The notes under the pieces were generated by a model. It saw only the letters and a program-made list of their open reading frames with translations. It did no database searches and was not told where the DNA came from. From Chitinophaga pinensis (GTDB lineage Bacteria; Bacteroidota; Bacteroidia; UKL13-3): a stretch of 64,000 bases of DNA. Shown here piece after piece: positions 4,152-26,706 of this stretch (position 1 is the first letter of the stretch; every line of letters begins with the position of its first letter). The stretch spans positions 68,364-132,363 of the forward strand of contig CAMARW010000005.1 of assembly GCA_945860865.1 (NCBI GenBank), read 5' to 3'. The position numbers and the translations under genes were made by a program.

Positions 4152-5891
4152 ATGAAAATTTTATTAAAGTATCTCAAGAATTATAAAAATTTGGTAGGTT
4201 TGGCGCTGTTATTGGCGGCTGTTAATCAAACTTTTTCGCTGTTAGATCCTTTTATTTATGGTAAATTAGTAGATAGATTTGCGAGTAGGCCTGCCGATTA
4301 CGACGAGCAAACGTTTTTAAAAGGGGTTGGTTTACTAATTTCTGCAGCCGTGGGTGTGGCTATGGTGAGTAGAATTGCCAAAGCTTTCCAAGATTATACA
4401 CTCAATTTAATTATACAAAAATTTGGCGCTGCGGTTTATACAGATGGTTTAAAACATGCTTTGCAATTGCCTTTTCAAGAATTTGAAGACCAACGTAGTG
4501 GCGAATTACTGAATGTATTGCAAAAAGTGAGGACAGATTCTGAGAAGTTTATTATCAATTTTATCAATATCTTTTTTACCTCCTTTGTGGGTATCGTATT
4601 TGTGGTTGTTTATGCTATCCAGGTGCAACCTTGGTTAATTTTATTGTATTTTGGGGCTAGTTTTTTACTGGCTTTTTTAACAGGTATTTTATCCAAAAAG
4701 GTAAAAATTGTGCAACAAAGAATTGTTGCGCAAACAAAAGCTTTAGCAGGTTCTACCACAGAATCTTTGCGCAATATAGAATTGATTAAAAGTTTGGGTT
4801 TAACACACCAGGAAATGAAACGCCTAAATGTGTCTACCCAGAAAATTTTACAGCTAGAATTACAAAAAGTAAAAGACATTAGAAGCATTAGTTTTTTGCA
4901 AGGAACCATTGTCAACTTTCTACGTCAAACCATTTTGTTTGTATTAATGTATATGATTTTTAAGAACGAAATGACCTTGGGGCAGCTGATGACATTGCAG
5001 TTTTATTCTTTCTTTATTTTTGGCCCTATGCAGGAAATGGGAAATGTAATTTTGAGTTACAGAGAGGCAGAAGCATCTCTGCAAAATTTCCAGCACATTA
5101 TGGATAAGCCATTAGCCCAAAAGCCTGCTTACCCGGTTGCTATTGATAGCATAAACGAGGTGGCTTTTAACCAAGTTGGCTTTACCCACAAAACAGGTAA
5201 ACAAGCTGCTTTACATGCCGTAAGTTTTGAGGTAAAAAGTGGCGAAACCATTGCTTTTGTTGGACCATCAGGGTCGGGTAAAACTACCTTGGTTAAATTA
5301 TTGGTAGGTTTGTATCAGCCCAATGAAGGCGAAATAAGCTTTAATAAAATTGCCAGTAAAGAATTAGATATTGATGCTTTGCGCAATCAAATTGGATTTG
5401 TAACACAAGATACCCAATTGTTTTCTGGCACTATCAAAGAAAATTTACTGTTTGTTAACCCACGAGCAACAGATGAACAAATTATAACCGCGCTAAACCA
5501 AGCTGCTTGTCAAAATTTATTGGCCCGCAGCGAAAACGGAATTAACAGCATAATAGGAGAGGGCGGAATTAAAATTTCTGGCGGCGAAAAACAGCGCTTA
5601 TCCATTGCTAGGGCTTTGTTGCGTAATCCGAGGCTGCTCATTTTTGATGAAGCAACCTCTGCCCTTGATAGTATAACTGAAGAAGAAATTGGCAAAACTA
5701 TTCGAGAAATTAGCTTAGGTAAAAACCACATTACCGTAATGATTGCGCATCGTTTATCTACTATAATGCATGCAAGTAAGATTTATGTGCTAGAAAAAGG
5801 GGAGCTGGTAGAAATGGGTAAACATGAAGACTTGTTGGCTCAAAAAGGATTATATTATGCCATGTGGCGCCAACAAATTGGTGAAAGGTAA
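4152..5891 (+). CDS. ABC exporter, fused permease and ATPase
   Basis: A half-size exporter of 579 residues: an N-terminal six-helix ABC membrane domain (about 1-310) and a C-terminal ATPase. Seen: Walker A GPSGSGKTT near residue 372, signature SGGEKQR, Walker B LLIFDEATSALDS and the switch histidine in IAHRLST. Such proteins act as homo- or heterodimers in the inner membrane; the substrate (lipid, peptide or drug) cannot be told from sequence. I take the ATG at 4152 over an in-frame TTG nine bases upstream, because that TTG lies inside the candidate promoter element. It starts the co-directional run through menG, porT, tgt and lptF/G. Confidence 0.92.
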   Translation: MKILLKYLKNYKNLVGLALLLAAVNQTFSLLDPFIYGKLVDRFASRPADYDEQTFLKGVGLLISAAVGVAMVSRIAKAFQDYTLNLIIQKFGAAVYTDGLKHALQLPFQEFEDQRSGELLNVLQKVRTDSEKFIINFINIFFTSFVGIVFVVVYAIQVQPWLILLYFGASFLLAFLTGILSKKVKIVQQRIVAQTKALAGSTTESLRNIELIKSLGLTHQEMKRLNVSTQKILQLELQKVKDIRSISFLQGTIVNFLRQTILFVLMYMIFKNEMTLGQLMTLQFYSFFIFGPMQEMGNVILSYREAEASLQNFQHIMDKPLAQKPAYPVAIDSINEVAFNQVGFTHKTGKQAALHAVSFEVKSGETIAFVGPSGSGKTTLVKLLVGLYQPNEGEISFNKIASKELDIDALRNQIGFVTQDTQLFSGTIKENLLFVNPRATDEQIITALNQAACQNLLARSENGINSIIGEGGIKISGGEKQRLSIARALLRNPRLLIFDEATSALDSITEEEIGKTIREISLGKNHITVMIAHRLSTIMHASKIYVLEKGELVEMGKHEDLLAQKGLYYAMWRQQIGER

Positions 5892-5908
5892 GTTATTTAT
5901 TACATTTG
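5878..5908 (+). promoter_or_regulatory. Candidate Bacteroidota promoter for menG-porT
   Basis: TTG at 5878-5880, a 20-bp spacer, then TACATTTG at 5901-5908, eight bases before the menG ATG. This is close to the TTTG-N19-TAnnTTTG consensus and would allow menG-porT transcription separately from the ABC gene, whose 3' end it overlaps. Confidence 0.45.
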
Positions 5909-5915
5909 TAAGCCA

Positions 5916-6644
5916 ATGATTAAAGAAGTAAAACCAGATATATCTCTCCATACAAGTAAGAAAGAGCAAGTAGAGGAAATGTTTAATAGCATTGCCCCTA
6001 AATATGATTTTTTAAATCGCTTTTTATCCTTGGGAATCGACAAGATTTGGCGCAAAGAAGCAATCGCTTACCTCAAGCCGCTTCAACCAAAACAAATTCT
6101 AGATGTGGCTACCGGAACCGGCGATTTGGCCCTAGAAGCTATGAAACTAAATCCAGATCAAATCATTGGTTTAGATATAGCCGAACAAATGTTATCCTTT
6201 GGCAGAATTAAAATTGATAAAAAAGGTTTGAGTCAAAAAATTAAAATGATACAAGGCGATAGCGAAAATTTGCCATTTGATAACAATCATTTTGATGCCA
6301 TTACCGTTGCCTTTGGTGTGCGTAACTTCCAAAACTTAAGCAAAGGACTAAAAGAAATGAACCGGGTGTTAAAGCCTGGCGGAAGGCTGGTGGTTTTGGA
6401 GTTTTCTAAACCGGCTTCTTTTCCTTATAAACAAGTTTATAATTTTTACTTTACCTATATTTTACCGGTAATGGGTAACTTATTAAGCAACAGTAAAAAT
6501 GCCTATACCTACCTGCCAGAAAGTGTGAAGCACTTCCCAGAAGGCGATGCCTTTGTTGGCTTTTTAAAAGAAGCTGGCTTCAAAAATATGATTGTTAAAC
6601 CTTTAACTTTTGGCACTTGCTCGCTGTATATAGCCGACAAATAA
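5916..6644 (+). CDS. menG: Demethylmenaquinone methyltransferase (UbiE/MenG)
   Basis: A 242-residue class I SAM methyltransferase with the UbiE signature. Seen: the glycine-rich SAM loop DVATGTGD at 63-70, FGVRNF and RVLKPGGRLVVLEFSKP in the second half. It methylates demethylmenaquinone in the last step of menaquinone synthesis; since Bacteroidota respire with menaquinone, menG is the better name than ubiE. It fits with the quinone-linked SdhCAB and PyrD encoded later in the window. The length is normal. Its 3' end overlaps the start of porT by 28 bases, an arrangement common in this phylum. Confidence 0.95.
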   Translation: MIKEVKPDISLHTSKKEQVEEMFNSIAPKYDFLNRFLSLGIDKIWRKEAIAYLKPLQPKQILDVATGTGDLALEAMKLNPDQIIGLDIAEQMLSFGRIKIDKKGLSQKIKMIQGDSENLPFDNNHFDAITVAFGVRNFQNLSKGLKEMNRVLKPGGRLVVLEFSKPASFPYKQVYNFYFTYILPVMGNLLSNSKNAYTYLPESVKHFPEGDAFVGFLKEAGFKNMIVKPLTFGTCSLYIADK

Positions 6645-14254: not shown

Positions 14255-14339
14255 GCTCGGGTGGTGGAATTGGTAGACACGCAGGACTTAAAATCCTGTG
14301 TCCTTTAAAGACGTGCGGGTTCAAGTCCCGCCCCGAGTA
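14255..14339 (+). tRNA. tRNA-Leu (TAA)
   Basis: A class II tRNA of 85 nt. The acceptor GCTCGGG pairs with CCCGAGT; anticodon arm CAGGA-CTTAAAA-TCCTG with anticodon TAA; long variable arm (TGTCCTTTAAAGACG); T-arm GCGGG-TTCAAGT-CCCGC. The CCA end is not encoded, unlike the neighbouring tRNA-Gly. Confidence 0.96.
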
Positions 14340-14340
14340 C

Positions 14341-14379
14341 AAAAAGCCTTGCTTATCTTTTGATAAGCAAGGCTTTTTT
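14341..14379 (+). terminator. Rho-independent terminator after tRNA-Leu
   Basis: A perfect 17-bp inverted repeat built on AAAAAGCCTTGCTTATC with a TTTT loop and a six-T tail, starting two bases after the tRNA. It separates the tRNA unit from the accessory region. Confidence 0.9.
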
Positions 14380-14477
14380 GTTTTTGATTCACCAATAGGT
14401 GATGAATTTACACCCAAAATTAGAGGTTCGCTTATTAAGATGTTATTTGCCATGCTATGACAACAGCAAAAAAATAC

Positions 14478-14485
14478 TATATTTG
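14478..14485 (+). promoter_or_regulatory. Candidate -7 element of the PIN toxin-antitoxin unit
   Basis: TATATTTG matches TAnnTTTG, six bases before the antitoxin ATG. No TTG is seen at the -33 position, so this is tentative. Confidence 0.35.
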
Positions 14486-14491
14486 AATTAA

Positions 14492-14713
14492 ATGACACTC
14501 CAAATAGACATAATAAATCCAAAAGCTACTAGACTTCTAAAAGACCTTGCTGACTTAAACCTCATTTCCATTAGAAGTGAACAAGAAAATAATTTTATAA
14601 AAGTTGTAACCAAACTTCGTAAAAAAGCCTCGGCTGAAAATCCAACTTTTGAAATGATAACGAAAGAAGTTGAGCTTGTCAGGACAAAGCGATATGCGAA
14701 GAAAAAAGGATAG
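14492..14713 (+). CDS. Putative antitoxin of a PIN-domain TA pair
   Basis: A 73-residue, charged, mostly helical protein (KATRLLKDLADLNLISI near the N-terminus, basic RTKRYAKKKG at the end). No DNA-binding fold is obvious. The identification rests on context: it precedes a COG1569-type PIN toxin gene and overlaps it by 20 nt, the usual layout of such pairs. Small proteins of this form often combine an N-terminal dimer or DNA-contact part with a C-terminal toxin-binding helix. It is the first gene after the tRNA terminator. Confidence 0.75.
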   Translation: MTLQIDIINPKATRLLKDLADLNLISIRSEQENNFIKVVTKLRKKASAENPTFEMITKEVELVRTKRYAKKKG

Positions 14714-15119
14714 AATCATAATTGACACAAACCTTTGGATTAGTTTTCTTTTATCTAAAAGTACCTCAGGCCTAGACAGATTGTTGCTTGAACAATCAAT
14801 CAATCTAATTTTTAGCCAAGAGTTGCTCGACGAATTTATTGAAGTTGCGCGACGTCCCAAACTAAAAAAGTATTTCAATCTTTCAGACCTTGAAGAACTT
14901 TTAATACAAATTAATTTCCATGCAGAGTTCGTATCAATAACCTCAAGTATAAATCTTTGCCGTGATCAAAAGGATAATTTTCTGCTTTCATTAGCAATTG
15001 ACAGCAATGCCACTTATTTATTGACGGGCGATAAAGACTTATTAGTGCTTAACAAAATTGGTAAAACAAAAATAATTACCGTAACACAATTCCTATCCGA
15101 AAAGAGCACGAATAACTAA
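14694..15119 (+). CDS. PIN-domain toxin ribonuclease (COG1569 type)
   Basis: A 141-residue protein of the 'putative toxin component, PIN family'. Acidic metal-binding residues are visible: IIIDTNLWIS near the start, the Glu of ELLDEFIEVA in the middle, RDQKDNFLLSLAIDSNATYLLTGDKDLL in the C-terminal half. All the expected carboxylates appear present, so it is probably active; family members cleave RNA. I start at ATG 14694, which overlaps the antitoxin gene; an in-frame TTG at 14670 is less likely. Confidence 0.85.
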   Translation: MRRKKDRIIIDTNLWISFLLSKSTSGLDRLLLEQSINLIFSQELLDEFIEVARRPKLKKYFNLSDLEELLIQINFHAEFVSITSSINLCRDQKDNFLLSLAIDSNATYLLTGDKDLLVLNKIGKTKIITVTQFLSEKSTNN

Positions 15120-15212
15120 CAAGAATTTGGATGCAATAAAGGCTTCACTCCTCACGAAAACCCCATCCCAACCAACGAACATGGTCAGTATGTTTGGAAG
15201 ACTACAACGTAA
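15120..15212 (+). pseudogene. Possible C-terminal remnant of a lost gene
   Basis: Directly after the PIN toxin stop, and in the same frame, 30 sense codons read through to TAA. They include NPIPTNEHGQYVWKTTT, which has the look of a real C-terminal tail rather than random sequence. No start codon is present. The family is not recognised. It suggests that a larger gene once ended here and was replaced or deleted upstream. Confidence 0.25.
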
Positions 15213-15331
15213 AAAATTAATTGATTTTTCATTAGGTAAAGCGTATTTTGAACAGGTTAATTTTGAATAAACAATTTATGGGGCTTTGAAATTTTTCAAC
15301 TCCTAATGGTTAAAACAAGCCTGAAAGCATA

Positions 15332-16222
15332 CTAACTATTTTTCTTAAGCACCTTTTGTATAAAGCGAATAAATTCTTTAGAGCCAAGTACCTTTACTTC
15401 TTCTAAAAAGCCCAATACAAATCGCCCAGGCGCTTTAAAACTTTGCACATTGGCTTTAAAATAATACTTGTCTGTGTCGGGTATCGACTTAAAAAATGCA
15501 GTACTCATGGGGTATTCTTCTTTTAAAACCAAGTAAGCCCGCATACTCATTTCTAATTCAATTTCCTTATTTAAACGCTTGCCTTGAAAACCAAAAATAT
15601 CGGGCTTGTAAAATTCATGCTGCATTTCGTGTTCCATTGCTGTTTCAAGCACTTCAACACTTGTCATTCGCTCTATGTTAAAGTATTTGTTGAGCTTTGT
15701 TTTAATCTCAAAGGCAGAAACAGAATCGTAATTTTCTGTAAAACAAGTTGGTTCAACCAAGCGATCGGAAACACTCTGGCTATTGGCCGAGCTGTATCCT
15801 TTTATAAAAAGTTGTTTTCTCTCCATAATCGCAATAGAAATTTGCTCAACAATTTTTGCCAAGTGCGCCTTAAATAAACTGTCGCCTCCCAGCGCTATTT
15901 CGGTAGATTGTTGAATCTTCTGCAAAACACTATCTGCCAATTTGTTTTGCTTTCCAGCAGATACAATCAACTTTTTTAGGTAGTCTGCCTCCTGCGGTGT
16001 AAAGGGGATATGTTCACTTTCTGTAGCCGCCGCAATAAAAAATTTGCTATGCTTATCCTTTTCAATCTGGAAGCCTAGGTCTTTTAATAAATCTAAGTAA
16101 CGATAAGCTGTTCGCTCAGAGGTTTCAAGAAAGACTTCAATACTCCGTATCGATTTCGCTGGTTTAGCTTTCAGGTAATTGATCAGCTGAAATAGGCGGT
16201 ATATTCTATTCTGATTGAACAT
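15332..16222 (-). CDS. HTH-WYL transcriptional regulator
   Basis: A 296-residue protein starting at the ATG at 16222 (MFNQNRIYRLFQLINYL); upstream in-frame codons are not convincing. An N-terminal helix-turn-helix (about residues 5-60, with SIRSIEVFLETSERTAYRYLDLLKDLGF) is followed by a WYL-type ligand-sensing domain. WYL regulators in bacteria often control stress, DNA-repair or defence genes and respond to nucleic acid or nucleotide signals. An 18-bp motif in its promoter region recurs about 8 kb away, before a truncated XRE gene, and may be its operator. The gene is divergent from the beta-barrel gene at 16561. Confidence 0.85.
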   Translation of the reverse strand: MFNQNRIYRLFQLINYLKAKPAKSIRSIEVFLETSERTAYRYLDLLKDLGFQIEKDKHSKFFIAAATESEHIPFTPQEADYLKKLIVSAGKQNKLADSVLQKIQQSTEIALGGDSLFKAHLAKIVEQISIAIMERKQLFIKGYSSANSQSVSDRLVEPTCFTENYDSVSAFEIKTKLNKYFNIERMTSVEVLETAMEHEMQHEFYKPDIFGFQGKRLNKEIELEMSMRAYLVLKEEYPMSTAFFKSIPDTDKYYFKANVQSFKAPGRFVLGFLEEVKVLGSKEFIRFIQKVLKKNS

Positions 16223-16274
16223 GTTGTAAAATAGTTTGCCAAATAAAGTCAATTCGCATAGAACAGCCAAACGG

Positions 16275-16292
16275 TTGACCCTATCTGGCAGA
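16275..16292. promoter_or_regulatory. Shared 18-bp motif upstream of the WYL gene
   Basis: TTGACCCTATCTGGCAGA lies 53-70 bp upstream of the WYL start. A copy differing at two positions (TTGACCTTATATGGCAGA) sits at 24331. The location suits an operator or activator site. It is not palindromic, and binding is inferred only. Confidence 0.35.
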
Positions 16293-16560
16293 GAAGTTCA
16301 GTTGTTTTGTATGGTCGTAATTTTTATAGGTAAATATTAAAGTGGAAAATAATCAATTTATGAGAGTAAAATAAATTTAAGCAGACGCGGTTATCAGCAA
16401 ACAACCCAAACTACATTTTAAGCTTGCTAAGCTGTATGGTTTGTGAAAGCCTCATGACTAATCATTCAAAAAGAAAAATAAAAAAGTGGAGACAAAAAAC
16501 CACTCAAAAACATAGAAAATTCCAATAATTCAAAACAGTAAAAAAATAAAAATTAAAAAA

Positions 16561-17268
16561 ATGAAGAAGTTTGTATCAAGTTTAGTTGTTTTAACAACAA
16601 TTGTATTAAATACCCAAGCACAAGATGCAAAAGGGTATATTGGATTTTCAGTAGGCCCAAGTATCCCAATGGGAGATTTAGCGAGTAAAGATGCAGACAA
16701 TAATGCCGCAGGTTGGGCTAAAACAGGGGCAATCTTCGACATTTCTTTTGCTTACAAATTAGGGGATGGAAATTTTGGCATATCAGCCTTGCTACGCGGA
16801 CAAACAAATCCAACTGATGCACAAAGCTTGGCTGATGAACTCGCAAATCAAGCTGCCGGGGTTAATTGGACCGTAGAAAGCGCTGGGTGGGGCATAGGAG
16901 GCTTAATGTTTGGAGGTTTTGGCTCGTTTCCTATTTCCGAAAAATCTTCATTTGACACAAGAGCAATGATTGGCTTTTTGAGCGCAACTTCACCAGAAAT
17001 AACCATTACAGGTTCTGGACCAGGTGGAACAGTTTGGGTTAAACAAAGCAGTGCATCTACCAATTCTTTTGCCTATCTATTGGGGGCAGGTTTTAAGTTT
17101 GATTTAGGAAAAAAATTATACTTGTTAACTAACCTAGACTATTTGGGTTCAAGTCCTGAATTTAATAATGTGGAAACAATAGCAAGTGATGGCACAATAG
17201 AAAAAAGCACCTGGAGCCAAAGCATGGGTTCAATAAACTTTAGTTTGGGTTTAGCATTGAAGCTATAA
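16561..17268 (+). CDS. Small outer membrane beta-barrel protein
   Basis: A 235-residue protein with a clear signal peptide (MKKFVSSLVVLTTIVLNTQA, then QDAKG) and alternating beta strands rich in Gly and aromatic residues, ending SLGLALKL. It fits the broad 'outer membrane beta-barrel / porin-like' group of Bacteroidota; no specific function can be given. It has its own terminator at 17298. It is the first of three unrelated small envelope genes in the accessory region. Confidence 0.8.
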   Translation: MKKFVSSLVVLTTIVLNTQAQDAKGYIGFSVGPSIPMGDLASKDADNNAAGWAKTGAIFDISFAYKLGDGNFGISALLRGQTNPTDAQSLADELANQAAGVNWTVESAGWGIGGLMFGGFGSFPISEKSSFDTRAMIGFLSATSPEITITGSGPGGTVWVKQSSASTNSFAYLLGAGFKFDLGKKLYLLTNLDYLGSSPEFNNVETIASDGTIEKSTWSQSMGSINFSLGLALKL

Positions 17269-17297
17269 AAATCAACGTGTAATAGTTCATAATAAAT

Positions 17298-17335
17298 AAG
17301 AGGGCAGAATTACTTATGCGTATTTCTGCTCTCTT
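17298..17335 (+). terminator. Terminator after the beta-barrel gene
   Basis: The stem AAGAGGGCAGAA pairs with TTCTGCTCTCTT with one G-T wobble, followed by a short T run. It lies 30 bp after the stop codon. Confidence 0.7.
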
Positions 17336-17406
17336 TTAACTTTGTGGTTACAATGACTATTGATCTTTAAATTATTTATTTTATTCGTTTTAATTGATAA
17401 AAAATT

Positions 17407-18057
17407 ATGAAACATTTTCTTATTTTATTGGCTTGTTTAGTAACACTTTCCTCATGTTCAGTTACCATTCCTTTACAATCAAATTTGAGCGACCAAACAA
17501 TGTTATTAGCTGAAAATAAAAATATAAAAGCTAATTACACTTTGGTCTCTAAAGTTCCTGATGGTTATTTGCCATACGTGGCTGTACAAAAAAATGGTAC
17601 AGAAACTCCCAATAACTCTTTTTATATTTATGCCTCTGAGACTGCTTTTAAAAAAATATGGAGTTCATATTTCTCTGGCAAATTCAACAATTATTCTAAG
17701 GATCAAATGGATATTGCGGTCACCCTAAAAGAGTTGAAATTAAGGGAGCAAGCTGCCACTTCAGTGGGTATGACAATGTTGACTGGCAATTCAACAGTAA
17801 ACGTTGAAGCCGCGGTAACTGTTCATGTTATTGTTGATTATCATAGCAAAAGATATGAAAACCAATTTGAGGTAACAGCTTCAGATTATAATGAATCGCA
17901 ACAGATGGCATATGGTACTTATAATTACACAGTTAATCAAACAAATCCTACGCAACAGAAGTCAAAGTTATTGGAAAGTAGTTTAAATAAATCAATCATT
18001 CAATTTGAAAATTTTCTTCGTTCAATTATGCTCATTGATAAAGAAGGGAAACAATAA
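17407..18057 (+). CDS. Lipoprotein of unknown function
   Basis: A 216-residue protein with a lipobox: hydrophobic start then LSSC, with Cys near residue 17. The rest is mixed alpha/beta. I see no catalytic motif. Its segment FKKIWSSYFSGKFNNYSKDQMDIAVTLKELKLREQ resembles envelope lipoproteins that assemble on the periplasmic face, but I cannot name a family. It is likely monocistronic, 139 bp after the beta-barrel stop. Confidence 0.75.
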   Translation: MKHFLILLACLVTLSSCSVTIPLQSNLSDQTMLLAENKNIKANYTLVSKVPDGYLPYVAVQKNGTETPNNSFYIYASETAFKKIWSSYFSGKFNNYSKDQMDIAVTLKELKLREQAATSVGMTMLTGNSTVNVEAAVTVHVIVDYHSKRYENQFEVTASDYNESQQMAYGTYNYTVNQTNPTQQKSKLLESSLNKSIIQFENFLRSIMLIDKEGKQ

Positions 18058-18191
18058 TTTCATAATTTATACTAGTTAAATGCAACAGTGGATGGAGAAG
18101 ACGGCAATCTCTATGAAATTCAAATTGACAACTAAATACAAACAGGTATGCTGAAAACTGAACAGAGTAGGCAAATTAAAAATTAAAAACG

Positions 18192-18485
18192 ATGAAAAAA
18201 ACATTAATTATTTTTACCATTATGGCTTTATTTACATTAGGTGTTAACGCCCAGACTAAAAAAGACGGAACTCCTGATATGCGTTACAATTCCAATAAGC
18301 AATCTTATGGAAACAGCTACTCAACACCTTCTTATTCTGCACCTAAAACTGAAAGAAATTATAACAATGGCGGGCAATATAAAGTGCAAAGTGGCTATCA
18401 AAAAAGCAATGGCAGCTATATTGCTCCGCATATAAAAACAACACCCGATAACAATCTTTATAATAACAAACCAAAGTATAAATAA
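18192..18485 (+). CDS. Small secreted Tyr/Asn/Ser-rich protein
   Basis: A 97-residue protein with a signal peptide (cleavage after VNA, before QTKKDGTPDMR). The mature part is low in hydrophobics and rich in Tyr, Asn, Ser and Lys. Its KSNGSYIAPHIKTTPDNNLYNN segment resembles a short conserved motif of the form 'G-Y-V-x-P-H-x-K-T-x-P-D-N' seen in small periplasmic proteins. Function unknown. A strong ribosome-binding context (AAAAATTAAAAACG before ATG) is typical for the phylum. Confidence 0.7.
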   Translation: MKKTLIIFTIMALFTLGVNAQTKKDGTPDMRYNSNKQSYGNSYSTPSYSAPKTERNYNNGGQYKVQSGYQKSNGSYIAPHIKTTPDNNLYNNKPKYK

Positions 18486-19096
18486 ATCTGACAAATTGAT
18501 TAAAATCTTTAATAATGCATAGGACAGAAAAATTAGATTACTTAAACTTGGTTAAATACTAAAAAAATCAAAATACTTTTAGCATTTGCTTTAGGAATTT
18601 CTATGACTTTTTTAATGGCATTTACACAATTGCAAGAATAGGATAAATCATTGGCTCGCATTTAAAAGATGTCGGCAAAATATGTTTTTATTAATTGTAA
18701 GGTACTCCAAAAATGTTAAAACGTAAAATTAGACCAGAAGCAAAACGCTATAGATTTTAATAAATGTAAGAGGCATAAATAGTCGTAAAGGAAGCTATTT
18801 AAAATAGGGGATAGGTAGCACAACGTAAACTCCAACGCCGTATAAATTAGTTAAGCAATAATTGTAAAATTTGAATCCAAGGGTAAAAATTTTGGTTTAT
18901 TATCAAATTAATAATTTGTTATTAAAAATACTAAAATTTGTATTAGTTATAATAATTATTAATTTCGTGTGAATCCGTATTAAGAACGAAAAAGTTATGT
19001 AAATACTTGAAGCTCCTAAAAGCTTTAACTTTAAGCCGAGCAGATAAAGCCAACTTAAAATTTAGTGCATAAGACAGATAATTAAAATATAAAAAC
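18486..19096. other. 610-bp gap without a clear gene
   Basis: Very AT-rich. From about 18560 a short frame reads KIKILLAFALGISMTFLMAFTQLQE then stop, which looks like a signal peptide without a start codon and may be gene debris. Otherwise I see no ORF, RNA fold or repeat. The last 100 bp presumably contain the promoter of the PLD gene. Confidence 0.5.
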
Positions 19097-20986
19097 ATGA
19101 ACGACATCATAACCAACGGAACAGAAATAAAGCAACGGATTCTTTCTGAAATTAATAAAGCTACTCAAAGCATTTACCTTGCAATGGCATACTTTACGGA
19201 CAGAGAAATTGCAATGGCAATCGTTGGGGCAAAGAACAGAAATGTGTTAGTTGACATTATCCTTTCTTCAAATATCCAAAACGACACAGTAAAACTAATA
19301 CTTAAAGGTGCAAACATTATTGTTCACGCTTTTGAGACAGGTGACGCAAGAGGAATAATGCACCATAAATTTTGTCTTATTGACAACAAAATCACAATTA
19401 ACGGCTCATACAATTATTCAATTAATGCAAGTAACAACAATGTAGAAAATATTCATGTTTCAGACGATACTTCAACTTATTCCCAGTTCTTTACAGAATT
19501 TGAACGACTAAAATATAACATTGACAACCAAATAGCCGTGAACACAACAGCACAAACACCCGAAGGAAAGATTGAGCCGATTAAAGCAATAAATATTGTT
19601 GACACTTTCTCACAACAGTTACACAATCTGCTATATTCTTCCGCACAAATCAACACAGAAGAATACAAGAATCAAGGATATGAAACATCAAAGAAATGTC
19701 AAGGAAGTATTGATATTTTTAGAACAGAATATAGCAAAATAGAAGAGGAAATTAAAGTATTCACAACCGATGAAAGTTTGAGCAACAAAAAGAGTATTTT
19801 GACTTCTAACATTTCTAACGCTTTTGAAAGCACAAAAACTAATTTAGATTCTGAAAAACAAGAGAAAATTACGTTTGCCAAAAAAGATAACGAATTAGAA
19901 AAACGTCAAACAACAGATAAAATTTCAGGCATTCAACAAGAGAAATTAATTTTAGAGTCGGGTAATCAAAACACAGGCGAAAAAGGATTATTACAAATCA
20001 ATAAAGAAATTGAGAAAAATAAACTTGAAAGAAAAGCACTAGAGCAATCATTTATTGTTAAGCCATTTTGGAATTTAGGGACTTCTTTATCAACCTTATT
20101 CTTAGTTATACTTACTTTTTATCTTTCTTTCTTTTTTGCGTCAGCAGTTTACAAAGTATTATTTGAATATAATATAATCCAGAACTCAATGGAAGCTGGT
20201 GTAAGGCCAGGTTTGCCTGAGCTTTTTGATGCAAATGCCATAGTCAAGATATTTAGACTAAAGGGGGCATTCTTTGGATTTGTTGGTTTGATCTTCTTTG
20301 TCTTTCCTGTTGCATTATCAAATATAAAACTTTTTGGCAGCAAGAATAAATTGGTAAATGGTCTGATGTTTTGGGGAGGCTTATTAATATTTGATGTTGT
20401 TGTTGCAGCTATGATTGCTAAAAACACAGATGAAATAAAATCTTTGTTAATTGGAAAAGAATCACAACTCCAGTTTTGGGAAGTTGTGAAACATGGTGAG
20501 TTTTGGATGATTTTTATGTTCGGAATGATACCACTTATTATTACTCATTATGTGGTTGAGAAAATATTTCACTCCTACAAAAATTCACAAAGAGATTTAG
20601 TTGATGCTGAAAAAAATAGAAAAATTCAATTCTTAGAAGAAGAAATGATTGAACTTAATTTTGATAAAGAATCAATCGGAATTAAAATTAAAGAGAAGGA
20701 AGATGCTATTTCAGAATGTAAAACGAAAATTGCAAGTCTAGAAACAGAAATCAATTCAGTTCAAAATCAAATTGAAACTAGATATGCTGAAATGCAAAAA
20801 CAAATTAAAGCAATAGTTGATGGTTTTAACGCAAGGATATTAAGTGGTAAGATATTTACCGATGTTATTTTGGATAGCGTTATTTCGAACTACAAATCAG
20901 GGTTTATAGAGTATTTACCTGAATTCTATTCCACGGAAGAAGTATCTTTCAGAGTTAGAGAAATTGAACAAGTAGTTAACAAATAA
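19097..20986 (+). CDS. Membrane-anchored PLD-domain protein with coiled coils
   Basis: A 629-residue protein. Residues 1-145 form one phospholipase D-type domain with the HxKxxxxD motif (H89, K91, D96) and the following NGSYNYS (102-108) typical of Nuc-like PLD nucleases. Residues about 200-320 are charged and coiled-coil. Four predicted membrane helices lie near 328-352, 388-410, 419-441 and 469-487, followed by a second coiled coil (495-575) and a C-terminal tail. Single-HKD proteins usually dimerise to build one active site and act on DNA, RNA or phospholipid. Coiled coils joined to TM helices suggest a sensor or scaffold. The next gene, a vWA-like lipoprotein, starts 12 bp later. Function unknown. 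Confidence 0.85.
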   Translation: MNDIITNGTEIKQRILSEINKATQSIYLAMAYFTDREIAMAIVGAKNRNVLVDIILSSNIQNDTVKLILKGANIIVHAFETGDARGIMHHKFCLIDNKITINGSYNYSINASNNNVENIHVSDDTSTYSQFFTEFERLKYNIDNQIAVNTTAQTPEGKIEPIKAINIVDTFSQQLHNLLYSSAQINTEEYKNQGYETSKKCQGSIDIFRTEYSKIEEEIKVFTTDESLSNKKSILTSNISNAFESTKTNLDSEKQEKITFAKKDNELEKRQTTDKISGIQQEKLILESGNQNTGEKGLLQINKEIEKNKLERKALEQSFIVKPFWNLGTSLSTLFLVILTFYLSFFFASAVYKVLFEYNIIQNSMEAGVRPGLPELFDANAIVKIFRLKGAFFGFVGLIFFVFPVALSNIKLFGSKNKLVNGLMFWGGLLIFDVVVAAMIAKNTDEIKSLLIGKESQLQFWEVVKHGEFWMIFMFGMIPLIITHYVVEKIFHSYKNSQRDLVDAEKNRKIQFLEEEMIELNFDKESIGIKIKEKEDAISECKTKIASLETEINSVQNQIETRYAEMQKQIKAIVDGFNARILSGKIFTDVILDSVISNYKSGFIEYLPEFYSTEEVSFRVREIEQVVNK

Positions 20987-20998
20987 TAAAGTAATCGG

Positions 20999-21874
20999 AT
21001 GAAAAATGTTATAGCCATTTGTTTGGTTTTGCTCTTGTTTGCTTCATGTGGTTCAGAGCCTCAAAACAAATATTTAACCTATCAAAATATCGTTATCCTT
21101 TCCGATATGTCAAGTCGACTGGAAAACAGACCGCCAAAAGACATAAATGAAATTCAAAAAATACTTCAATTTTTCAAGACAGAATGTGTGAAACCCGGTG
21201 AAAAAATTGGGGACAAATCTTGTATTTCGTTTTCTGCATTTTCAGAGAAAACGGCTGCTACTATTGACATAAATAAAATTAAGAACTTGGGCGAAAAACA
21301 ACGCTTCATAAACTCTACTGCTGAATATGAACTTTGTGGACTGAGCCATCAAATTACAAACTTTGATAGTACTGTAAGAAATGTATATGCGAAAACAAGG
21401 AATGAAGGATTAGATTTAATAAGCCTTTTAATTGAAAAAATATCAAACGAGCATATTGTTAAAGAAGATACATACTTGACAGATGGGTTAGATACAACTT
21501 ATTTAGCTTACAACAATCATATACACATTTTTACAGATGGTTATTTGGAGTATTTGGATAAAAATAAAAATAGCCAGTTTTATTTCGGGAACTCTGAAAT
21601 TGAGAAAGTGCGAAAATATTGTATAATCAACAAAGTGAACATTTCTGATGCACTTGAGTCAGACAAAACTTTATGCCTACCGCCAAGCAGACACAAACTA
21701 AATAAGTATATAAACCTTCACATACATGAAACACATGAACGTGATAAAAATTTAAATTCACAAACATACTTGCATCCAAGAGGACAAAGGGATAATGAAA
21801 TACTTGAAGCAGTTTGGAAAAAGTGGTCAAAAGACAGCGGTTTTAAAGACGACCTGCAATGGTATAAATATTGA
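20999..21874 (+). CDS. Lipoprotein with vWA-like motifs
   Basis: A 291-residue protein with a lipobox (LLLFASC, Cys17). After a short linker, NIVILSDMSSRLENR holds a DxSS motif at D36 and, around residue 180, HIFTDGYLEYL holds a T-D-G. Together these resemble the MIDAS metal site of von Willebrand A domains, although DMSSR is not the exact DxSxS form. The C-terminal part is rich in His, Arg and Lys. Only 12 bp separate it from the PLD-TM gene, so the two are probably one operon whose products meet at the envelope. I know of no named system with this pair. Confidence 0.75.
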   Translation: MKNVIAICLVLLLFASCGSEPQNKYLTYQNIVILSDMSSRLENRPPKDINEIQKILQFFKTECVKPGEKIGDKSCISFSAFSEKTAATIDINKIKNLGEKQRFINSTAEYELCGLSHQITNFDSTVRNVYAKTRNEGLDLISLLIEKISNEHIVKEDTYLTDGLDTTYLAYNNHIHIFTDGYLEYLDKNKNSQFYFGNSEIEKVRKYCIINKVNISDALESDKTLCLPPSRHKLNKYINLHIHETHERDKNLNSQTYLHPRGQRDNEILEAVWKKWSKDSGFKDDLQWYKY

Positions 21875-22040
21875 CAAAAAAATCGTGTAGATTGTGCCAC
21901 AATAATAGTAAAAGTGGTGGTTCAGTGCTCCGCAGACACATTTGTGGTAAAATCAAAAATTGGTTCTCCGCATCAACATTTGTGGTGAAAATCGCCACCT
22001 TCGCCAAGCCAGAAACCGTTATAAGCAAGCATAAAAAGAC

Positions 22041-22205
22041 ATGATAAAAGATCTAATAACAGATTTGGCATATGACAAAATTGCAATTGTGCTGGCTTAC
22101 AATTTAGTTTTCCAAAATTTACAAATGCGCAAAGAGTGGGAGCAAATGGTCAAGTATGGAACGACAATCAGGTTCGATATAGGCATACAAACTTATTATC
22201 AATAA
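22041..22205 (+). pseudogene. Short ORF resembling the start of an AbiTii domain
   Basis: An ATG-started frame of 54 residues beginning MIKDLITDLAYDKIAIVLAY. The first 14 residues closely recall the N-terminus of AbiTii-domain proteins (abortive infection family, usually 200-300 residues), but the rest diverges and stops early. It is most likely a truncated or decayed copy. No partner gene is seen. The match is from memory of the family pattern and needs a profile search. Confidence 0.3.
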
Positions 22206-22359
22206 TTTATTTTAACAATTCAAAATTGATAGAAAGCACAAACAGGACCAAGCTAAATAAAGAAAGCAAATTGGGTGAAGGACATCGCGCCTTAACCTTA
22301 TATCAATAAATATTGCTTTGCTTTTAGTTAACTATTTTAAATGCTACAGATGAATTTTG

Positions 22360-23487
22360 TTAGAAAGCTTTTATCCCGCGTACTTTATAACTAGCGGTTT
22401 TAAGATTCCCATCAACTTGTCCATTTTGAAAATTGAAAAAAGACGCAGTTGTTTGGCCATACTCCATGCTACTCCAGTATAAATTGTTAGTAGTTGAAAA
22501 TAATAAGGTATGGCTGCCTGCGCGCAATGCTTTTTGAACTGTAAATCTGTTGTTATAGAGTAAAATAAGTTCATCAGGACTAGGTATATACCATCCTAAG
22601 CCCATACTTGACACATAAGTTTTAGCTTGACTTCCAGAAGTTGGAATCAAATTAGTATTAAATATTCCGTCCTCCGTGCGATTAGCGCCTGTAACAGTAG
22701 GCGATAATTGCCAATTAAGGCTAATTGAACTTTCAGTAGTCGCTACAATAAGTCCATGCTCTAAACCGTCGCTTCCTTTGTAAATATAAAAAATAATACC
22801 ACCTTGAAAAGGTTCACCTAGATAATGAGTAAAACCACCCACACCCGCATTTGCACCAGCCGGACCAGTGGCGCCAGTATCACCTTTTATTCCCTGTATT
22901 CCTTGAATTCCTTGAGCACCTTGTGGACCTTGTGGACCAGTAGCACCTGTGTCGCCTTTTATTCCTTGTATACCCTGAGGACCTTGAGGACCGGTTAAAC
23001 CAATTGCTCCGGTGTCGCCTTTTACTCCTTGTATTCCTTGAGGACCAGTTAAACCAATTGCTCCAGGGTCACCTTTGGGGCCAGGAGTTCCGTTTGCAGA
23101 AAACAAAGCATAGGGCACACTCGATAACTCGCTTGTGCTAATTATATTGTAAAGGTTGCTACCTGTTGGGTCTGTTTCTGTTTTTATAAAATAAGGGCCA
23201 TTTGCCCAGTTAATGGATGAAAAATTTCCTGACACAAGTGTTCCCGTGCCAATTTCAATACTCACCAAACCATTAATATTTGTTGTTGGCGTTTGTGTTT
23301 CTACATAAACCGCTGCTCCAAATATAGATCCTTGCAAAATTAGTATCCGCATGCCAATGGGCGAGTTGCTTACCAATGCATTTGAACTATTGCGAATAAC
23401 GGCCTGGTAGCTCATTTTTTGAGGAGCCTGGGCAAATAAATTTACCACTATTAAAAGTCCTAATAGGAATGAATAAATTTTTTTCAT
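22360..23487 (-). CDS. Secreted protein with collagen-like repeats and C-terminal DUF1566-like domain
   Basis: A 375-residue protein. After a signal peptide (cleavage after LFA) comes a conserved N-terminal domain ([21 protein letters not shown]...) frequent in Bacteroidota surface proteins. Residues about 133-218 are Gly-X-Y repeats ([20 protein letters not shown]) that should form a collagen-like triple helix. The C-terminal part ([21 protein letters not shown] to the end) looks like a DUF1566/Lcl-type domain. No T9SS sorting tail is evident. It lies 10 bp downstream of a small T9SS type A protein, in an operon. The DNA encoding the repeats is prone to recombination. Confidence 0.85.
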
Positions 23488-23497
23488 GTATAAATTT

Positions 23498-23977
23498 TTA
23501 TTGTTTAATTATTTTATAGGATTGTATTTGCTTGTTTTCATTGCTTACAACATTTACTAAATAAGTTGCCGAAGGGAAATTACTTAAGTCAATTTGAGTT
23601 AGATGAGTTGTAATATTACCCTTGCTCAATTGTTTACCTTTCAAATCAAAAAGCTGATACGATAATTTCTCATGGTTGTAATTGGAAATTTGCAGGGTTA
23701 AATTATCTGCAGTTGGATTAGGAAAAGCAATGAGAGAAATATTTAATGCTGTTTCATTTGAACCAACAGAGAAAATTTCAAAAGCTTGCTGTACACCTTG
23801 GGATGCGCTTCCAGCAATACCACTAACTGTTGTATAGGCAATTTGTCCAATACTAAATGAAACGGATCCCCCGCTGCTCGATGCATTTCCACCACTAGTG
23901 CTGATTATCTGCTGAGCGCTCGTTATCAACCCTAAATTTAAAAATAAAATAATTAAAAATACTCTCATGTTTTTCAT
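23498..23977 (-). CDS. Small secreted protein with T9SS type A sorting domain
   Basis: A 159-residue protein: signal peptide to about residue 21, then an [21 protein letters not shown]...[21 protein letters not shown] segment seen in many Bacteroidota surface proteins, and a type A C-terminal sorting domain (about 80-159) with [12 protein letters not shown] and a terminal IQSYKIIKQ. The sorting domain routes it through T9SS, matching PorT at 6.6 kb. It is first in an operon with the collagen-like gene. Confidence 0.88.
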
Positions 23978-24419
23978 ATTGTTATTTAGTAAGGTTTTAA
24001 CTTCTGCAATATACTTTAATTACCACGAATAAAGTTTATTGCCATTTTTGTTTTAAAATGTGCATCCGCACAAAAACTCCCTTTCTTATGCAAAAAAAGC
24101 CACACCTTTAGCGCATGAAATTTACCCAATAAATGATTTTAACCTATTATCTTAAATGGGAAAAAGTGGCTTAACCATGCGTATTTATTGCGTTCAATAG
24201 AATTAATTCAATCAAGCATTCTGTCAATTCAGTAAACAATAAAATTCAGATTATGGTGAATGTCCTATTTAGCAGGTAATTGATTTTAAACTTTTACGTT
24301 CGTTACAATTCTTTAGCAATACCCATTTTTTTGACCTTATATGGCAGAATATTTTTATTTTATGTTCTTAATTAACCGCTTTATTTTGCTATTTTTTACT
24401 CGTTGGTCAAAATAATATT
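23978..24419. other. Intergenic region upstream of the decayed XRE gene
   Basis: About 440 bp without a gene. It contains the second copy of the TTGACC-type 18-bp motif (24331) and should hold the promoter of the T9SS operon on the minus strand. I see no RNA gene or repeat array. Confidence 0.5.
24331..24348. promoter_or_regulatory. Second copy of the 18-bp motif found before the WYL gene
   Basis: TTGACCTTATATGGCAGA matches 16 of 18 bases of the site at 16275 and lies 72-89 bp before the truncated XRE gene. Its orientation relative to the nearest gene is opposite to that of the first copy. Confidence 0.35.
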
Positions 24420-24563
24420 ATGTTGATTAAAGAAATGGAACAGCCAGTTGAGTTTGGATCATATATTCACAGTTTACGGAAAGAGAAAAAGTACTCATTA
24501 AAAATCGTTGCAGATAAACCCGCGGAGTTTGAACCTAAAATGAATGGCTTTAAGACCATTTAG
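24420..24563 (+). pseudogene. Truncated XRE-family regulator
   Basis: An ATG-started frame of 47 residues. FGSYIHSLRKEKKYSLKIVADKPAEF matches the first helices of an XRE helix-turn-helix as found in short Bacteroidota regulators (pattern F-G-x-Y-I-x-x-L-R-x-E-K-x-x-S-L). The recognition helix and everything after it are missing, and a stop follows. The next gene is also damaged, so the locus appears to be decaying. Confidence 0.5.
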
Positions 24564-24627
24564 AGACTTTTCACTGACTCAAAATTATTAGAAATCGAAA
24601 TTTAAAAACAATTTAATGGGTTGAAGT

Positions 24628-25487
24628 ATGAGTAAGTTGGAAATCAATACTGGTAACGCTGATTTAATTAGCGACATCAGCTTACTGATTGAGCAAAGCC
24701 AACGCCATATTGCTACACAGGCTAACAGCGCCCTTACACAGTTGTTTTGGCAAATTGGTAAACGAATTAATGATGAAATACTGTTAAACAAACGTGCAGA
24801 TTATGGCAAACAGATTGTCGTGACAGTGTCGCGACAATTAGAAACAAAATATGGAAGGAGTTTTTCTGATAGGAATTTGCGTAGAATGATGCAATTTGCT
24901 ACTGTTTTTAATGATTTTAAGATTGTGACACCACTGGCTACACAATTGAGTTGGTCGCATTTTATTGAGTTATTTCCACTTAAAACGGATGAGGCAAGAA
25001 TGTTTTATGCGCAAAAATCGATTGAAGAATCTTGGGGCAAAAGAGCCTTAAAAGAACAAATTGAACGAAAAGCCTTTGAGCGCAACGAGATTGCCAATAC
25101 GCAATTGAGTAATTTTAAACCCGAATTATTATTGATGGGGATGATTTTTACTTAGACCTCTTATTTTATAACCGAAAACTAAAACGCTTGGTAGCTATTG
25201 AACTTAAATTGGGCAAGTTTGAAGCGGCGCATAAGGGGCAAATGGAGTTGTATTTAAAATGGCTGAGTAAATACGAAAAAGCCGAAGGCGAAAACGAACC
25301 CATTGGTTTAATACTTTGTGCCGAAAGCAATAAAGAACAAGTAGAATTATTAGAAATACACAAAGACGGTATTATGGTAGCCGAGTATTGGACAGAAATG
25401 CCAAGCAAACAAGCCTTGCAACAAAAGCTACATCAATTATTAATAGAAGCCCAAGAACGTATTGCACGCATTACTTTAAATGCATAA
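24628..25487 (+). pseudogene. DUF1016 / YhcG PDDEXK-nuclease gene with internal deletion and frameshift
   Basis: The first part (24628 to about 25133) encodes the DUF1016 N-terminal helical domain, including FWQIGKRINDEIL and YGRSFSDRNLRRMMQFA. At about 25133 the frame changes, and the reading resumes as DGDDFYLDLLFYNRKLKRLVAIELKLGKF, the nuclease core. The segment normally between them (roughly 90 residues) is missing. The product of the first frame stops at 25155, so no complete nuclease can be made. Intact YhcG proteins are putative Holliday-junction-like or defence nucleases. The remaining PDDEXK motif (D, then ELK) is still readable. Confidence 0.85.
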
Positions 25488-25532
25488 AATGAATAGGATG
25501 AAAATAGCATAAAAGGAAACCCAAAACCCATT

Positions 25533-25868
25533 TTATTTCTGCCAGGTTGTTTTAACAAATGTTGCGGTTGAAAATTCTACGCCATTAATTTTTGTATTTC
25601 CTGCAATACCACCCAAGTAACCCAGACTTTTGCAATCGGAGCTGATTACTTCAGTTGCCATGTCGGCACCGCAATTACCCGGGTCTAGTGTATAAACCGT
25701 ATTACCTTGAAAAGTATATTCCTCAACTTTTACATTGTTGCAGGTTGATGATTTATTGATGTCTTTAATTTTATTCTCCACACATTTTGGTGTGCCTTTT
25801 TCAATGTCGAGTTTGGTGCAACTAACCATTACAGTTGCCATTAATAATAGAATCGATAGTTTTTTCAT
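25533..25868 (-). CDS. Small lipoprotein (DUF6970-like)
   Basis: A 111-residue protein with a lipobox (MVSC, Cys17). KCVENKIKDI near the start of the mature part, VYTLDPGNCG in the middle and LGYLGGIAGNT towards the end resemble the small Cys-containing domain DUF6970 of Bacteroidota lipoproteins, although I recognise this only loosely. Three cysteines in the mature part could form disulfides. No function is known. It lies just downstream of the membrane protein gene at 25887. Confidence 0.65.
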   Translation of the reverse strand: MKKLSILLLMATVMVSCTKLDIEKGTPKCVENKIKDINKSSTCNNVKVEEYTFQGNTVYTLDPGNCGADMATEVISSDCKSLGYLGGIAGNTKINGVEFSTATFVKTTWQK

Positions 25869-25886
25869 TTTAATTATTTTTTGGCT

Positions 25887-26687
25887 TCAATCCATTTTAT
25901 GAATTATTTCGTTTGGGGCATTTTTTGATCTGATTAAGGGTTTTCCTTTCAAAGCTTGAATGAGCGTAAGTAAAGCCAATAGTCCATAAACTACAGAAAT
26001 ACAAACTGTTAATTTGGTGTTTTTTAAAACATAATAGGATAGTATAGGCAATACTTGTAAGGCATGCATGCCAATAAAATGTGAAACCCTTAAATCGCCC
26101 ACCGTTTTGCTCCATCCAATGATGAACCAATTTGAATTGTCGTTTAATGCGCCAACACTATGATTTAATCTGGAACCCATGGCAAAGCCTTCAAATGAAA
26201 ATACAACGAAAATGATTATACTTAAGCGTATGGCCCAAACATAGTAATTGGGTAAGGTGGGAAAGGAGTTTTTGAAAAATAATAGTCCAACATAAAAGGT
26301 ATAAAGGTTTACTAAAGATGCTGCTAAAGCCATCATAGAATACAAGGCAGCATAAACAGGGGTGCTTATATTGTAGTGAGAGAGTTGCCCTTTGCCTGCC
26401 TGAAATGCAATATAGAAAATTTCAAAACCCAATAAAATGATAACCGACCAATTGAATAGATTAATATTGAAATTGGGCAGGTAATAGCAATACCAAGCCA
26501 TAGCCCAAGCAAATAAAAAGGTTGAAAATGCAAATTTAAAAGGCTTATACCAAGCATTTACACCATAAACTTGCGTATTTGAAAACTTAGTAAGCAGTAT
26601 AAAAACAACAGATAGCACCAAACACAATAAACCATAGTAAAATAGTGTTTCGTTACGGTATTTAACTTGTTGAATAAATTCTATCAT
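25887..26687 (-). CDS. Multi-pass membrane protein, family unknown
   Basis: A 266-residue integral membrane protein with about seven or eight predicted helices. Conserved-looking polar motifs between helices: AWYKPFKFAFS, QAGKGQLSHYN, GSRLNHSVG and DLRVSHFIGMHALQVLP. The paired histidines in the last are unusual for a membrane segment and could bind a metal or haem. I remember the motif pattern from widespread uncharacterised proteins but cannot give a function. It is 19 bp downstream of pyrC on the same strand and may be co-transcribed with it. Confidence 0.8.
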   Translation of the reverse strand: MIEFIQQVKYRNETLFYYGLLCLVLSVVFILLTKFSNTQVYGVNAWYKPFKFAFSTFLFAWAMAWYCYYLPNFNINLFNWSVIILLGFEIFYIAFQAGKGQLSHYNISTPVYAALYSMMALAASLVNLYTFYVGLLFFKNSFPTLPNYYVWAIRLSIIIFVVFSFEGFAMGSRLNHSVGALNDNSNWFIIGWSKTVGDLRVSHFIGMHALQVLPILSYYVLKNTKLTVCISVVYGLLALLTLIQALKGKPLIRSKNAPNEIIHKMD

Positions 26688-26706
26688 TTTGTAAAACTGG
26701 CCTTAA

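Follow-up and report, generated by a model that had tools for sequence, protein, structure and literature searches.

The gene pair and the insertion that carries it

The window, which is the whole stretch of 64,000 nucleotides that was analyzed, contains two adjacent open reading frames separated by 12 bp. The first (19097-20986) encodes 629 amino acids and the second (20999-21874) encodes 291. The features of the pair and its surroundings are as follows.

14255..14340, + strand: tRNA-Leu(taa), found by ARAGORN, the edge of the insertion
14341..26706, no strand: accessory insertion of 12.4 kb that separates tRNA-Leu from pyrC and holds the pair; congeners L136 and L139 are without it
19097..20986, + strand: inner-membrane protein of 629 aa (ORF) with the order PLD domain, coiled coil, four transmembrane helices (4TM), coiled coil; 19 full-length homologues
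19139..19510, + strand: PLD domain of the Nuc/NucT/MitoPLD type, residues 15-138
19361..19384, + strand: HKD catalytic motif H89-x-K91-x4-D96
19526..20071, + strand: cytosolic helical/coiled-coil linker, residues 144-325, helical in the AF2 model; carries G194 (34/34 homologues) and G203 (32/34) of a family-wide GYxxS...G motif
20072..20566, + strand: membrane region with four helices by hydropathy, residues 326-490; F346, S349, D433, F469 and G476 each 34/34
20393..20395, + strand: codon of D433, the invariant intramembrane Asp of TM3 (34/34, PLD-bearing and PLD-free)
20567..20983, + strand: C-terminal cytosolic coiled coil (AF2 helices 499-583) and conserved G602 motif (G602 34/34)
20999..21874, + strand: vWA-like periplasmic lipoprotein of 291 aa (ORF)
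21047..21049, + strand: lipobox cysteine C17 (C in 31/34 homologues)
21104..21118, + strand: MIDAS-like DxSxR (D36, S38 and R40, each 34/34)
21533..21544, + strand: TDGY (T179-Y182), second MIDAS element (D180, G181 and Y182 34/34; T179 33/34)

A first-pass annotation had proposed a two-gene unit here, and both reading frames were found exactly at the positions it gave. Compared with the closest homologue, dN/dS is 0.12-0.13 for both genes, and purifying selection acts on both. Because the adjacency is kept in every testable homologue and dN/dS is this low, a chance pair of ORFs is ruled out.

In congeners L136 and L139 the tRNA-Leu and pyrC genes lie only 44-48 nt apart (empty site), whereas in the window they are separated by 12.4 kb. 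The site is variable and tRNA-linked, with other genes in its vicinity in congeners L137 and L138. Besides the pair, the insertion carries a PIN gene, an HTH-type regulator and a split YhcG nuclease. The earlier description of an accessory stretch with TA and decayed nuclease genes was borne out by Pfam, which recognized the PIN/TA gene and the split DUF1016/YhcG. The latter is a PDDEXK nuclease divided over two ORFs (24628-25487), and it matches PADLOC candidate PDC-S02. Beside the pair (22360-23977) are a protein with collagen-like repeats and one whose C-terminus is of the sorting type, both likely surface proteins. The GC content of the pair is 31.5%, against 37.3% in the flanks. There was no integrase among the ORFs read and no convincing direct (att) repeat at the edges of the insertion. 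A scan for the Bacteroidota promoter motif gave 7 sites, which is the chance level, and none was upstream of the pair.

Domain structure of the two proteins

The 629-aa protein matched PLDc_2 over residues 15-138 with E 1.9e-23 (83.2 bits, Pfam cut-off 27). The motif H89-K91-D96 (GIMHHKFCLID) is invariant across the 19 full-length homologues. In a profile search of structures, the PLD domain matched NucT and MitoPLD, the best being NucT 6ehi (2.2e-19), and Foldseek matched the PLD part of the AF2 model to Zucchini, NucT and Nuc. Membership in DISARM DrmC (NCBIfam NF038319, 21.3 bits against a cut-off of 133) or in the NucT NCBIfam equivalog (49.4 bits against 225) was rejected, both scores being far under the cut-offs. 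Hydropathy placed four hydrophobic segments near residues 333, 390, 423 and 469, and in the AF2 model long helices flank the membrane region on both sides. A Nuc-type PLD domain joined to coiled coils and four membrane helices, as first reported from reading the sequence, is thus confirmed.

The AF2 model of this protein has a mean pLDDT of 80 and a pTM of 0.42, therefore single domains can be used but their relative placement cannot. A structure-profile search for solved relatives of the 4TM core returned coiled-coil noise only. Foldseek with the full model gave essentially matches to the PLD part, so that the 4TM part was barely probed. Pfam found no CARF/SAVED cyclic nucleotide-binding domain in the window protein or in its PLD-free relatives, although Pfam could miss an unrecognized binding domain. 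DUF4041 and GIY-YIG were also absent from the Pfam scan of the window protein.

The second protein begins with the lipobox LLFASC. Its AF2 model has pLDDT 84 and pTM 0.83, and vWA domains fill the Foldseek list, the top vWA chains having prob 0.97-1.0. The best vWA structural match is VIA, with Z 11.6, rmsd 2.9 and 158 aligned residues. The protein was not recognized by Pfam, NCBIfam or PADLOC. Over 34 pairs, the motifs DxSxR (D36, S38, R40), G137xD139 and T179-D180-G181-Y182 mark a putative metal-site region. The lipoprotein, the vWA-like assignment and the TDG of the earlier reading all stand; the DxSS that it had called MIDAS-like is corrected to DxSxR as the conserved motif, which differs from the canonical DxSxS. 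A canonical MIDAS (DxSxS ... T ... D) was rejected, DxSxR, GxD and TDG being invariant over the 34 instead. The lipobox Cys is missing in L070 and L096. Both have an N-terminal hydrophobic segment in its place, and this exchange suggests that the vWA domain acts on the periplasmic face of the inner membrane.

A family of pairs with and without PLD

We scanned 84,980 species genomes for the PLD-membrane protein. Twenty-one homologues extend past the PLD domain, with identities from 83% down to 26-31%. A lipoprotein homologue is located directly downstream in 18/18 loci with a contig long enough, at identities as low as 26%. Among the hosts are Pedobacter, Flavobacterium, Parabacteroides, Flammeovirga and uncultured Bacteroidetes; the pair is not confined to close relatives, and it is present in distant Bacteroidota families. 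The HKD motif is conserved among PLD-type members with one exception, L095 (1848-3842). In this divergent member the catalytic His is replaced (GIMNQKFC), and TerD, SNase and HsdR_N-type genes lie alongside. In L019 (10001-11888) the PLD-membrane gene is split in two frames next to an intact lipoprotein gene, possibly a decaying copy or a sequencing error. No full-length match to the pair was found in phage/viral contigs or plasmids, where one plasmid match covered part of the PLD only, and carriage by phage or plasmid was rejected.

The spread of the pair is thin and patchy. A plain protein search found a high-identity lipoprotein in 4/395 Bacteroidota genomes, and a profile search found the lipoprotein in 20/395, about 5% of the sample. 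Just upstream of every inspected full-length match that was not PLD-type was a coiled-coil/4TM (CC-4TM) protein of 400-490 aa without PLD. In L101 the two genes are separated by an ORF of 147 aa. Profile-profile comparison with hhalign showed that PLD-type and PLD-free membrane proteins are homologous (probability 99.8, E 2.8e-28), as are their lipoproteins (probability 98.9, E 3.3e-17). On these alignments, the window pair belongs to a family that we define here as CC-4TM + vWA pairs, with a homologous core and partner encoded next to each other. Pfam, NCBIfam and PADLOC do not contain this family. In the trees, a branch separates the PLD rows from the others with support of 95 (membrane core) and 81 (vWA), and the TerB-linked rows are likewise set apart by a branch (support 99).

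Seven residues of the membrane protein (G194, F346, S349, D433, F469, G476 and G602) and twelve of the vWA protein (N30, D36, S38, R40, D48, G137, D139, N173, D180, G181, Y182 and W273) are invariant in the 34 pairs. D433 is within hydrophobic TM3 in every family member. Because the invariant residues sit in these parts and PLD-free relatives exist, the constant part of the family, judged by conservation, consists of the membrane core and the vWA partner, to which the PLD domain is an addition. The idea that PLD forms the core was rejected, since deeper relatives keep the membrane protein and the lipoprotein without it. The first-pass annotation had envisaged a device built on a membrane-bound nuclease or lipase with an extracytoplasmic partner. 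The unit, the topology and the accessory setting hold; the central place given to PLD does not.

Five PLD-free pairs are found in type III CRISPR settings. In genome G515 (L101) the pair shares a type III locus with a RAMP gene, and the lipoprotein gene overlaps cas1 by 4 bp, followed by cas2. Adjoining this pair in the locus is a sigma-54 activator (4954-6405) whose N-terminus looks CARF-like. In G137 (L098) the pair is beside Card1, a Csx14-type (NE0113) CARF gene, cas6 and a Cmr cluster. Csx20, a shown cA4 ring nuclease (PMC12409355), is two genes from the pair in G011 (L070; E 3.3e-25, above the cut-off), and a Csx20-like gene (2.4e-9) is directly upstream of it in G009 (L037). In L037 (123-5265), HAD, phosphoribosyltransferase, DprA-like and Csx20-like genes are in line with the pair, an arrangement reminiscent of Ter or nucleotide-signal biosynthesis clusters. 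The short contig of G216 (L061) carries, along with the pair, a weak Csx3-like gene. All five genomes have Cas10, whose background is 86/395 Bacteroidota genomes. Among carriers without PLD and TerB, 5/7 have Cas10, with a binomial chance of ~0.007 that is not corrected for kinship. In contrast, Cas10 is present in 0/14 PLD-type genomes reached through loci and is absent from the window genome. Placement in a type III locus was thus observed for the PLD-free pairs of L098 and L101 and not for the window pair.

In Flavobacteriia and Sphingobacteriia, a TerB-like gene precedes the PLD-free pair to form a trio; the TerB match is weak, with a Pfam value of 1.4e-4 that is just below the cut-off. 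The trio locus holds a TPR histidine kinase, a response regulator and an HsdR_N-type protein. In the same locus type, the PLD-type pairs of L003, L006, L011, L012, L019 and L039 replace the TerB trio. The recurring locus (these six, with L062-L069 and L071) comprises the kinase, the regulator, the HsdR_N-type protein, a small lipoprotein and an endo/exonuclease, and its exchangeable cargo may mark a regulated defence or stress hotspot.

Other PLD-type pairs have type I RM, GmrSD, nSTAND or methylase genes nearby, and the pairs of L005, L007, L009 and L018 are among ordinary chromosomal genes. We compared 101 genes beside 13 PLD-type pairs with 96 control genes from the same genomes, using PADLOC at 1e-10. 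Near the pairs 267 models were matched, against 28 in the controls, counts that refer to models and not to distinct genes. Since the listed matches were mostly type I RM genes at two loci, this support for a defence neighbourhood is modest and does not settle the matter. Enrichment near defence genes, which had been put forward as support for a system, appears as CRISPR links in the PLD-free sister branches and only modestly in the PLD branch itself.

Proposed function and comparison with known systems

We propose that the pair is a two-gene immune effector that has spread horizontally and spans the envelope. It would be membrane-tethered, with a periplasmic vWA partner and, in the PLD branch, a nuclease at the cytosolic face; we give this about an even chance. 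The two-gene unit, its folds and topology signature, the family with its contexts and the insertion are established by the analysis, whereas the complex, its trigger, the nuclease substrate, any ion flux and activity against phages are inferred. The first protein would sit in the inner membrane through four helices with an invariant buried Asp and cytosolic coiled coils, holding its N-terminal Nuc-type PLD nuclease on the cytosolic face. The vWA lipoprotein would touch the short periplasmic loops of this protein and signal that the envelope has been disturbed, for example when a phage or mobile element brings in DNA. The membrane core would then change state and the tethered PLD would cut nucleic acid near the membrane. 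In PLD-free branches, the membrane core and vWA could be an effector coupled to other sensors, either type III CRISPR nucleotide signalling or TerB in a histidine-kinase/response-regulator locus.

The pair is probably a virus-defence device, because its relatives recur beside CRISPR and other immune genes. For the immune-effector reading we count the strict adjacency of the two genes, the PLD domain with its conserved motif, the vWA fold, the homology of both proteins with PLD-free pairs and the branch that sets the PLD rows apart. We also count the PLD-free pairs in type III CRISPR settings, with Cas10 in all five such genomes, the locus type shared by PLD-type pairs and TerB trios, the RM, GmrSD, nSTAND and methylase neighbours, and the patchy spread with a tRNA-linked insertion and empty congener sites. 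Against it we count a PLD branch without a CRISPR partner, several loci in ordinary chromosome, a defence-gene enrichment that comes from a few proteins, the absence from viral contigs and the loss of HKD in L095.

The same parts could instead serve envelope stress or homeostasis. The vWA protein would sense damage, the 4TM core would signal, the adjoining kinase and regulator would control the response, and PLD would act in repair or turnover. This agrees with the TPR histidine kinase and response regulator that adjoin both the TerB trios and a number of PLD-type pairs, with the weakly matched TerB and with TerD near L095 (families tied to stress response), and with the many loci in ordinary chromosomal surroundings. 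However, a patchy distribution, an insertion linked to a tRNA and exchange between loci resemble cargo and not housekeeping, and sister pairs within CRISPR operons are hard to square with homeostasis. We consider this explanation unlikely, though by no means negligible. Another question is the substrate. A PLD domain located at the membrane, with MitoPLD (annotated as cardiolipin hydrolase) among its closest folds, might be a phospholipase or cardiolipin hydrolase whose activation damages or remodels the inner membrane. But the top profile match is the nuclease NucT (2.2e-19), Nuc is close too, and a cytosolic site with coiled coils suits nucleic acid equally well. To our knowledge, single-HKD bacterial PLD members are nucleases, which also counts against lipid, and we hold this substrate to be improbable.

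NucT of Helicobacter is a DNA-uptake/processing nuclease of the transformation type. On this model, the window protein would process DNA in natural transformation or conjugation and not be a defence effector, consistent with NucT being the nearest solved structure and with nuclease neighbours at several loci (SNase, HsdR_N, endo/exonuclease). No competence genes were found beside the pair, however, and the CRISPR-linked relatives and the vWA partner would be left unexplained; we give this model little weight. Two adjoining genes on a mobile insertion could also be a toxin-immunity pair, with the lipoprotein neutralizing the PLD protein from the periplasm. Direct neutralization is unlikely because PLD is predicted to be cytosolic and the lipoprotein periplasmic, and the lipoprotein is retained in pairs without PLD. 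We attach hardly any credence to it.

Returning to the immune-effector reading, we tentatively extend it, at clearly less than an even chance, to a general Bacteroidota immune output module. CC-4TM + periplasmic vWA would serve three or more front ends, namely type III CRISPR signalling, TerB/two-component control and a PLD nuclease fused to it. Its core, with a buried Asp, would possibly be ion-conducting or envelope-disrupting. If true, the vWA pair would be a shared output stage of several immune systems in a major gut and environmental phylum, and an undescribed class of trans-envelope immune effector. Most known bacterial immune effectors are cytosolic or simple inner-membrane pores. The proposal predicts that residues H89, D433 and D36/R40 matter and that versions with and without PLD can be exchanged for one another. 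Some type III loci carry ring nucleases without a known effector (PMC12409355), and the PLD-free pairs are candidate effectors for these loci.

The first-pass annotation knew of no described system with a PLD-4TM + vWA architecture, and our literature searches likewise found none, nor any published description of the pair; for Altae-Tran et al. this applies to the main text. There is a real chance that the pair, as an undescribed type of membrane immune effector, represents a new class.

The window PLD domain shares its fold and motif class with the single-HKD Nuc/NucT/MitoPLD family. The members known to us stand alone or have a short N-terminal anchor, whereas here PLD is fused to coiled coils and four membrane helices. 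The family resembles Ter systems in that its membrane gene comes straight after a TerB-like gene in Flavobacteriia and TerD is near L095. However, the PLD branch has no TerB, and the TerY-type vWA of Ter systems is cytosolic whereas the vWA here is predicted to be periplasmic.

Altae-Tran et al. described vWA-related gene sets with transmembrane proteins near CRISPR loci (PMC10910872). Their main text contains neither the CC-4TM + vWA architecture nor the PLD branch (PMC10910872), and as far as that text goes their sets may include PLD-free members of our family. Cam1, Csx23 and CorA are membrane effectors of type III CRISPR (PMC11229360). They are membrane proteins coupled to type III loci, and PLD-free relatives of our pair also occur in loci of this kind, close to ring nucleases or CARF proteins. 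In contrast to them, our core has no detected CARF/SAVED, the system has two genes with a periplasmic vWA, and the PLD branch is not CRISPR-linked.

SNIPE (DUF4041/GIY-YIG), a membrane-anchored nuclease, has been shown to cleave phage DNA as it is injected, and the anchoring prevents self-damage (PMC13190303). The pair has no DUF4041, GIY-YIG or detected homology to SNIPE, and it has four membrane helices instead of one and a dedicated periplasmic vWA partner. SNIPE is still the nearest working analogue: like the nuclease predicted here, it is held on the cytosolic side of the inner membrane by helical parts.
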